The notes beneath the pieces were generated by a model that was not told the DNA's origin, ran no database searches, and saw only the letters and a list, made by a program, of their open reading frames with translations. Shown one piece after another: positions 4,513 to 6,789 of a DNA stretch of 64,000 bases. Location of the stretch: positions 806,001 to 870,000 of the forward strand of contig NZ_CP145606.1 in the NCBI RefSeq assembly GCF_028776105.2. The letters run 5' to 3'. Position 1 is the first letter of the stretch, and each line of letters begins with the position of its first letter. This stretch comes from Neisseria leonii. Its GTDB lineage: Bacteria; Pseudomonadota; Gammaproteobacteria; Burkholderiales; Neisseriaceae. The position numbers and the translations under genes were made by a program.

Positions 4513-6789
4513 TTAATCGGTATGTTCCAACAATTCGAGGCTGTCCGCCTTCCATTCCCGGCAGTCCAACGCGGCCATCACCTGTTGGCAGACGGCCTCG
4601 TTTTCCAGCGAACTTTGCGCGCGTGCGCGGCCTTCCTGCTGCAAACGCGCACGGTACATCTTCGGCGTTTCCCAGCCCTGATGATCCTGCCAGTCCAGCG
4701 TTTGCAGTTTCAAATCGGGCAGCAGATAGGCATCGGCCAGAACCGCACGGATTTTATCGAAATATTCTTTGCGCGCCAGCAGCTCGGCATGGCCGTTTAA
4801 CGAAAGGTACAGCAGGTTTTGCCCCGCATCATAATCCGCCCATGCGCTGTGCTGCGCCAGCATCTGCGCCGCGCCCAGCTTCGGTGCCAGCCGTTTGACC
4901 ATCAGCGGCCAGTTTTCGGCGGCAAAATCGGGCAGGGGGACAAAATTTCCGGCTTCGGCCGCGGCTTCCTCTTCCGCGCCGTCTGCGGTTTCCGCCGCCA
5001 TTTGCTGCACCATACTGTCCGCAGCGGCTTCGGATACCCCGTCCGCCGCGCCGCCGTCTGCCGCATCATCACGCGGCCAAGCGGCTTCTTTATATCCCAA
5101 CGTCATATCAGACTCGGCAGCGGGTGCGGCCGTTACGCGGTCGGATACCGTCGGGGGGCGTTCCTGCTGCACCGTTTCTGCCGACGGATACGCCGTTACT
5201 GCCGTTTCACCGATACCGCTTCCCAAATGTCCGTTTTCAGACGGCCTTGATGTGGCGGAAGGCGGTTCCTGCTGCGCCCAAACGGCATCTGCCGCTCCCT
5301 GCTCGTCTTCCAAAGACGGGGTATCAGAAGCATCATCGGCTTGATAAACCGTGTGCCGCATACTTTCGACCGTCTGCACCACTGCCGCTTGTGCGCCGCC
5401 TGCTACATCCGCTTCTGCCTGCTGCACCGTTTCCCAAGGCGGGACATCATCGGTTTCACCGGCCGCCGATTCCTCATGCCCTACCGTTTGTGCGGCCGTT
5501 TCGATTGCCGCTTCGCTGTTCGGCAGCATACCGTCCGCGTTTTGCCCGTCTGAGGCCGTCTGAACCGCCGCTGTCGGCCTATCGGTTTCAGCTGCCGCTG
5601 CGGTTGGCTGCTGCGGCAGAACCGGCGGCTTTTTTGGCGCACCGCCCGTTTCCGCGCCCAACTGCGTCCCCTCCACCGTACCGTCCGGCGGACAACCTCC
5701 GGCGGCCAGCGGCGTGAACGCCAGCATACGCAGCAGCGTCATCACAAATCCGGCATATTCGTCGGGTGCCAAAGCCAAATCCTGCCGCCCGTGGACGACG
5801 CACTGATAATAAAGCTGAATCTGCTCGTCGCCCAAATATCCGGCCAACTGCCGCAATACCGCATATTCGGGATCGTCGGCGGCTATGGCATCGGGCACGG
5901 CTTTGAGCAGTGCCAGCCGTTGCAGCAGCGCGGCCAAATCGGCCAGAGCATGATCAAAGCCCACCGCACGGGCGGCCATTTCCTGCGCTTTAGCAATCAG
6001 CACGCCGCCGTCCTGACGAACCATGCCTTGCAGCAGTTCATACAGATAACGCTTGTCTACCGCACCGATCATGCGGCGCACATCTTCTTCGGCCACCCTG
6101 CCCGAACCCATGGCAATGGCCTGATCCAGCAGGCTCAACGCATCGCGCATCGAACCGGCTGCCGCGCGCCCGAGCAGTTGCAGCGCGCCCGCCTCAAACG
6201 GCACCTGCTCCTGATCCAGCACATAGGCCAGATGATCCGCCACCTGCTGCGCCGTCATATTGCGCAACACAAATTGCAGACAGCGGCTCAATACCGTTAC
6301 CGGCACTTTGTGCGGGTCGGTGGTTGCCAGAATAAATTTCACATGGCCGGGCGGCTCTTCCAGCGTTTTGAGCATGGCGTTGAAAGCCGATTTCGACAGC
6401 ATATGCACTTCGTCGATGATATAGACTTTGTAGCGTCCGGCCGTCGGCGCATACTGGGCGTTTTCCAGCACTTCGCGGATATTGTCGATGCCCGTATTGG
6501 AAGCGGCATCGATTTCCAGCAGATCGACAAAACGGCCGCTGTCGATCTGGCTGCACACAGCACATTGCCCGCAAGGCTCACCCTGCACCGTGTGTTCACA
6601 GTTGAGACTTTTGGCCAGAATGCGCGCAATCGTGGTTTTGCCCACCCCGCGCGTCCCCGTCAGCAGATAGGCGTGATGCAGACGGCCTTTGTCCAGCGCA
6701 TTGCGCAAAGCCTGAACCACATGCTCCTGACCGACCAGATCGGCAAATTTTTTCGGCCGCCATTTGCGGGCGAGAACTTGATAAGCCAT
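4513..6789 (-). CDS. dnaX: DNA polymerase III subunit tau (and gamma by frameshift)
   Basis: A 758-residue clamp-loader subunit. Walker A GTRGVGKT is at 45-52, the zinc-binding cysteines at 64, 73, 76 and 79, Walker B IIDEVH at 124-129, and the sensor region TTDPHKVPVTVLSRC near 157-171. After domain III (about residue 370) comes an unusually long Ala/Glu/Thr-rich linker of over 200 residues, then the C-terminal tau domain that binds the polymerase core. A slippery sequence plus stem-loop at codons 386-387 should also give a shorter gamma-like product of about 400 residues. The start MAYQVLARKW was chosen by family homology; an upstream Met adds 19 residues with no support. Confidence 0.96.
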   Translation of the reverse strand: MAYQVLARKWRPKKFADLVGQEHVVQALRNALDKGRLHHAYLLTGTRGVGKTTIARILAKSLNCEHTVQGEPCGQCAVCSQIDSGRFVDLLEIDAASNTGIDNIREVLENAQYAPTAGRYKVYIIDEVHMLSKSAFNAMLKTLEEPPGHVKFILATTDPHKVPVTVLSRCLQFVLRNMTAQQVADHLAYVLDQEQVPFEAGALQLLGRAAAGSMRDALSLLDQAIAMGSGRVAEEDVRRMIGAVDKRYLYELLQGMVRQDGGVLIAKAQEMAARAVGFDHALADLAALLQRLALLKAVPDAIAADDPEYAVLRQLAGYLGDEQIQLYYQCVVHGRQDLALAPDEYAGFVMTLLRMLAFTPLAAGGCPPDGTVEGTQLGAETGGAPKKPPVLPQQPTAAAAETDRPTAAVQTASDGQNADGMLPNSEAAIETAAQTVGHEESAAGETDDVPPWETVQQAEADVAGGAQAAVVQTVESMRHTVYQADDASDTPSLEDEQGAADAVWAQQEPPSATSRPSENGHLGSGIGETAVTAYPSAETVQQERPPTVSDRVTAAPAAESDMTLGYKEAAWPRDDAADGGAADGVSEAAADSMVQQMAAETADGAEEEAAAEAGNFVPLPDFAAENWPLMVKRLAPKLGAAQMLAQHSAWADYDAGQNLLYLSLNGHAELLARKEYFDKIRAVLADAYLLPDLKLQTLDWQDHQGWETPKMYRARLQQEGRARAQSSLENEAVCQQVMAALDCREWKADSLELLEHTD
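5592..5635 (-). promoter_or_regulatory. dnaX: Programmed -1 frameshift signal in dnaX
   Basis: On the coding (minus) strand the heptamer A AAA AAG lies at 5635-5629, in phase with zero-frame codons CCA AAA AAG, exactly the E. coli dnaX slippery site. Nine bases later a perfect 7-bp G/C stem (CTGCCGC at 5619-5613 with GCGGCAG at 5598-5592, 14-base loop) begins. After a -1 slip the frame reads 13 more codons and stops at TGA 5590-5588, so gamma would have about 400 residues. A GGAGGGG element lies about 36 bases upstream, further than the roughly 10 bases used in E. coli. Confidence 0.8.

Follow-up and report, generated by a model that had tools for sequence, protein, structure and literature searches.

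A predicted E. coli-type -1 frameshift site in dnaX of Neisseria leonii, and candidate inverted gamma/tau junctions elsewhere in its order

Can the dnaX gene of Neisseria leonii, which encodes tau in one continuous reading frame, also make the shorter gamma subunit by a programmed -1 ribosomal frameshift of the E. coli type? We studied the gene in a window of 64,000 nucleotides, by which we mean the whole stretch of DNA that was analysed. The gene is the only full-length dnaX match in the 2.2-Mb genome; it starts at a conserved ATG (position 6789) and stops at 4513, and the computed mass of tau is 81.4 kDa. The protein has the Pfam clamp-loader domains DNA_pol3_delta2, DNAX_ATPase_lid and DNA_pol3_gamma3, and the heptamer A AAA AAG sits within the gene after these domains. 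The gene, its neighbor and the elements around the heptamer are as follows.

4513..6789, minus strand: dnaX (DNA polymerase III gamma/tau), one continuous open reading frame for tau (758 amino acids)
4125..4460, minus strand: next gene, with an ATG at 4460 (the open reading frame list instead has a TTG start at 4493)
5629..5635, minus strand: slippery heptamer A AAA AAG, codons CCA AAA AAG (P385-K386-K387), in X XXY YYZ phase
5613..5619, minus strand: 5' arm of a 7-bp stem, CTGCCGC, after a 9-nt spacer from the heptamer
5592..5598, minus strand: 3' arm of the stem, GCGGCAG, pairing perfectly with CTGCCGC across a 14-nt loop
5591..5629, minus strand: 13 codons specific to the -1 frame (AAGSAAAANRSGS), the C-terminal end of the predicted gamma
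5588..5590, minus strand: TGA stop of the -1 frame, 13 codons past the heptamer
5641..5648, minus strand: usual site of a Shine-Dalgarno (SD)-like stimulator in many relatives, here only the weak CGGGCGGT
5668..5674, minus strand: GGAGGGG, SD-like, 33-39 nt upstream of the heptamer, within an EGT protein motif that many relatives share

We take the gene at 4125..4460 to be YbaB/EbfC-like. A preliminary description of the locus had proposed a complete E. coli-style cassette, and its geometry is confirmed: the heptamer is in the E. coli phase, the perfect G/C stem begins nine bases later, and the TGA 13 codons on gives a predicted gamma of 400 amino acids (43.0 kDa) from the -1 frame beside a tau of 758. 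When we scanned the 2.5 kb around the site (4400-6900) against Rfam, which presumably contains a DnaX element, no family matched up to E = 10.

The further claim that three such elements in the right place are improbable by chance does not hold for this gene. The window contains 14 copies of AAAAAAG, compared to the 14.7 expected from shuffles. Across the linkers of the 40 site-bearing Neisseria genes, 62% of positions lead to a -1 stop within 13 codons, and a stem as good as the window's arises in 14% of codon shuffles (p = 0.14). The 71 nt starting at the heptamer fold with z = -1.92, and 8 of 200 shuffles are equally stable. The proven E. coli stem, included as a control, scores only p = 0.25 and z = -0.13 in the same tests, so these tests are unable to refute the window stem. 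Since no single element is rare in this gene, the cassette is unproved by the single sequence, and the chance frequency of AAAAAAG is a point in favor of the reading that the run merely encodes two lysines of the linker, its phase being coincidental.

Comparison with relatives gives a different picture of the run. A family search of 83 genomes yielded dnaX from 79, including 45 of 46 Neisseria genomes; we assign the 45 genes to Neisseria because several of them are near-identical to named loci (of N. polysaccharea, N. sicca, N. dentiae, N. elongata, N. iguanae, N. weixii and N. wadsworthii). These relatives are not independent samples. The remaining Neisseria genome (G026) is complete and had no dnaX match at 1e-5; its dnaX, which should be essential, is perhaps masked or broken, and the genome is omitted from the counts. 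Three other genomes (G060, G069 and G073) also had no dnaX match. An in-phase A AAA AAG is present in 40 of the 45 Neisseria genes, at codons 381-395, and the linker in which it lies turns over so fast that it is nearly unalignable by eye. Other copies of A AAA AAG in the 45 genes number one in phase and eight off phase. The residue preceding the heptamer can be A, E, P, V or L, but the third base of its codon is A in 40 of 40 genes (GCA 24, GAA 8, CCA 5, GTA 2, CTA 1). In these Neisseria genes GCA, CCA and CTA make up 20, 5 and 1% of the codons for their amino acids, and AAG is 14.5% of Lys codons.

The -1 stop is conserved as well: all 40 genes have one 1-13 codons past the heptamer (37 TGA, 3 TAA). 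For 22 representatives, which are less than 95% identical in the N-terminal part of DnaX, its mean distance is 5.9 codons compared to 15.7 expected for the linker, and 6 of 10,000 random draws were as low. The preliminary description had named free variation of the heptamer or the stem among close relatives as refuting; judged by that rule the heptamer holds up and the stem does not, the exact stem not being retained among relatives (median stem p = 0.49 in the 40 genes). A mere Lys-Lys linker is highly improbable given that the codon before the two Lys codons ends in A whatever the residue, that the rarer AAG is the second Lys codon, that -1 stops and SD-like sequences are enriched around the run, and that A AAA AAG is found in the corresponding region of none of the 34 dnaX genes from other Neisseriaceae.

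The length of the A run bears on another alternative, that the short product arises by transcriptional slippage as in Thermus, whose dnaX has nine As (PMC1088944 and PMC3711429, in the parts of these papers available to us). An A run does exist in the window, but it is only six As long. Among the 40 genes its length is six As in 32, rising to seven where GAA precedes it (eight genes), and the next base is always G; moreover, the upstream SD-like element that is enriched in the genus is one that would act on ribosomes. We rejected transcriptional slippage, which we consider very unlikely, on the grounds that there are only six As.

The heptamer is missing from five of the 45 Neisseria dnaX genes (G012, G021, which is N. 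elongata, G036, G039 and G052). Because these five include the window's nearest neighbor on the DnaX tree (G039, on a long branch whose placement is unsure), loss of the heptamer is tolerated. In the G039 gene (L121), a possible relocated site is formed by A AAA AAA and A AAA AAC, which overlap at codons 420-421 and lie 8-9 codons before a -1 stop. Among other Neisseriaceae, Alysiella crassa (L135) and genome G082 (L134) carry, instead of A AAA AAG, a slippery-phase A AAA AAA at codon 382, and a TGA ends the -1 frame two codons later; their close relative L106 is without this heptamer. Two genes of the AT-rich genus g6 (L162 and L163) have runs of 11 As near codons 375-378 with -1 stops nearby, which could reflect transcriptional slippage or base composition.

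At greater distances, 55 of 56 records (mostly from Betaproteobacteria, two of them ending at a contig end, drawn from the best 80 of 238 matches) have no A6 heptamer in the latter portion of dnaX, and the heptamer of the single exception is 35 codons from a -1 stop. Because the motif is missing from so many of these records, the E. coli solution probably arose in Neisseria independently. On a tree made from the first 358 residues of DnaX, in which many forks are poorly supported, the distribution of A AAA AAG needs 7 changes compared to 28.2 with shuffled labels, which is consistent with a gain in or near Neisseria followed by several losses. A search of the order with the 12-mer GACCCAAAATAA matched 36 of 250 genomes and was uninformative.

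We also looked for stimulators across the genus, calculating pairing energies with the anti-SD sequence that we take to be CCUCCUUA. In the 40 Neisseria genes, anti-SD pairing peaks sharply for 8-mers starting at -14 to -17; the SD of E. coli K-12, put through this test as well, lies at -17 (p = 0.036). An SD 4-mer at the E. coli distance is present in 25 of the 40 genes, compared to 8.8 expected and a maximum of 15 across 500 shuffles, and the pooled anti-SD z-score of the 22 representatives is -5.4. Taken individually, 17 of the 40 genes reach p = 0.1 or less. Downstream folding in the 22 representatives has a pooled z of -3.6 (0 of 300 shuffles), and a simple stem score has z = 2.0 (3 of 300); structure downstream of the heptamer is favored only as an average over the genus. 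SD strength and folding z-score are uncorrelated (0.04, 22 representatives). We treat the SD-like stimulator as auxiliary, not obligatory, to the cassette.

The window gene is one of the 15 site-bearing genes without an SD 4-mer at this position. Pairing at 5641..5648 is -5.3 kcal/mol (p = 0.75), so no SD is detectable, and the GGAGGGG further upstream is probably not a stimulator. The preliminary description was therefore right that this gene has no stimulator at the E. coli distance, but not in presenting this as a new design, since the SD peak of the genus lies exactly there. Might the site instead be decaying, an inherited heptamer that, with no SD-like stimulator and a weak stem, allows only a low level of frameshifting, the cells relying on tau alone? 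The undetectable SD fits this idea, as do the -1 tail, whose stop is the farthest among all 40 site-bearing Neisseria genes, the loss of the heptamer from the nearest tree neighbor, and the five of 45 genomes that manage without it. On the other hand, the heptamer and the third base of CCA have been preserved despite rapid turnover of the linker, a 7-bp G/C stem exists, 15 of the 40 genes retain the heptamer without an SD 4-mer, and in E. coli A AAA AAG ranks among the most efficient heptamers, as stated in the available part of PMC4066793. We regard decay as unlikely.

A -1 ribosomal frameshift is by far the best explanation, because selection acts across the genus on both the heptamer and the -1 stop, and on this comparative sequence evidence the window very probably contains a working E. 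coli-type -1 programmed frameshift site that makes gamma. We found 56 tRNA genes in the genome, all of them typed; two are for Lys, both with anticodon UUU, and none has CUU. The AAA AAG of CCA AAA AAG would therefore be decoded by a sole Lys tRNA species. Some ribosomes would slip back by one base, with both tRNAs re-pairing on AAA AAA, and would read 13 further codons to the TGA, releasing a gamma that consists of the clamp-loader part (400 amino acids). The remaining ribosomes would continue into the C-terminal region to make tau (758 amino acids), so that both proteins should be present. Without a detectable SD at the usual distance, it would fall to the heptamer and the structure downstream of it to set efficiency in this gene. 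Relatives that have kept the SD offer a comparison for this gene.

The reversed layout, in which tau is the frameshift product, does not apply to the window, where tau is a single reading frame. We did find it, as a candidate, in two other places. The first is genus g8 of the Neisseriaceae, sampled as seven genomes in fragmented assemblies (six genes; G060 had no match). In all six genes (L149 and L157-L161) the zero frame of dnaX ends at 377-381 amino acids. The stop comes zero codons past the sequence C CCA AAA in five genes and one codon past it in L161. From the heptamer, the -1 frame continues for 214-383 codons without a stop, and its end domain aligns with the C-terminus of the window's tau. 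Three g8 genes were scanned for the Pfam domain DNA_pol3_tau_5, which matched the tails of L158 (9.5e-5) and L149 (4.2e-4), below the curated cut-off, and not that of L161; on the window's own tail it scores 0.033. A hairpin lies 4-6 nt downstream of the heptamer (14-15 bp in four genes, 7 bp of a different sequence in two), with z-scores of -3.7 to -5.5 compared to codon shuffles. The tail domain shows dN of 0.03-0.13 versus dS of 0.16-0.62 among four close members. There are 21 public proteins resembling the g8 tail, and the four that are named are all called 'hypothetical protein' from Neisseriaceae bacterium; a length of 377-386 amino acids is seen in 9 of the 120 relatives listed for the gamma half. 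From these features, tau in g8 is probably made only via a -1 frameshift at C CCA AAA plus the hairpin. A rival explanation is that the tail is translated by a restart within it.

A survey of the order covered 150 genomes, 147 of which matched, and showed short dnaX frames in one family. This led to the second place, the Sutterella-like genera g31 and g101 of that family, where all 17 genomes drawn, most of them fragmented assemblies, gave a split dnaX (loci L229-L231, L234-L238, L240-L243, L256, L262 and L264-L266); two named matches of split length are from Sutterella sp. In 17 of 17 genes the zero frame stops at 423-473 amino acids and the tau tail is in the +1 (equivalently -2) frame. All 17 contain an in-frame NGG GGR GAR located 0, 1 or 4 codons before the stop, in which N is C in 8 genes, T in 5, G in 3 and A in 1, GGGG and GA are invariant, and R is A in 16. 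The alternative frame there reads G-(E/G)-(S/N)-x-x-P-(V/A) in every gene. Because N varies and the two Gs that follow it do not, we infer that a -2 slip of Gly tRNA from GGR onto GGG fits better than a +1 shift. There is no general hairpin in these genera (mean z = -0.2), but three genes reach -2.9 to -3.7. Tau in g31 and g101 thus appears, from this motif pattern, to be made by a +1/-2 shift at NGG GGR GAR.

Short dnaX frames are also present in G132, G133, G177, G184, G206 and G211, in all of which except G132 they lie no more than about 240 bases from a contig end. We rejected recoding in Snodgrassella CFCC 13594 (L021/L152), whose dnaX frame is likewise short but has, in this one genome, a single break near codon 360 and no slippery heptamer; the break is probably a sequence error.

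Taken together, it is likely that the gamma/tau junction of dnaX has been recoded several times within one order with opposite wiring: a -1 shift to gamma in Neisseria (heptamer plus SD core), a -1 shift to tau in g8, and a -2/+1 shift to tau in the Sutterella-like genera. If true, the inverted designs would show that selection has repeatedly favored the production of both gamma and tau, and they would correct annotations of the tau half as a separate hypothetical protein, as seen for g8. The inverted junctions of g8 and g31/g101 look less known than that of Neisseria, and we found no paper treating both dnaX and Sutterella in the literature that we searched.

The window gene and E. coli dnaX share the heptamer, its phase, a gamma read from the -1 frame, and a Lys tRNA with the UUU anticodon only, a condition that has been tied to slippage on A AAA AAG in E. 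coli (PMC5009743, in the part available). In addition, 25 of the 40 Neisseria genes share with E. coli an SD-like stimulator at the same distance. The two sites differ in location (residues 428-430 in E. coli and 385-387 in the window), in the -1 tail (1 codon and 13 codons, respectively) and in stimulators, the window having a stem of different sequence, 7 bp long and 9 nt away, and an undetectable SD. Thermus thermophilus dnaX also yields both gamma and tau from a single gene, but by slippage of RNA polymerase on nine As, whereas the window has six As and then G. Reversed dnaX genes have been reported for Chlorobium and others, and 12 of the 17 published examples have poly-A runs of 7-10 (PMC5009743 and PMC3711429, from the portions of the texts we could consult). 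The published genes are mostly of this poly-A type, unlike C CCA AAA plus hairpin in g8 and NGG GGR GAR in g31/g101; C_CCA_AAA is listed among shift-prone motifs in the accessible text of PMC4066793, and a -2 shift is known from phage Mu according to that of PMC5009743. Neisseria dnaX itself is an entry in Recode-2 and contributes to the dnaX frameshift logo of Antonov et al. 2013 (PMC3711429). In the sections of that paper open to us, the entries concern the same gene, genus and heptamer, with the genus alone named and not the species, and the pattern of SD over stem that we see in Neisseria does not appear. The window gene is a further, well-supported case of a mechanism already known for Neisseria.
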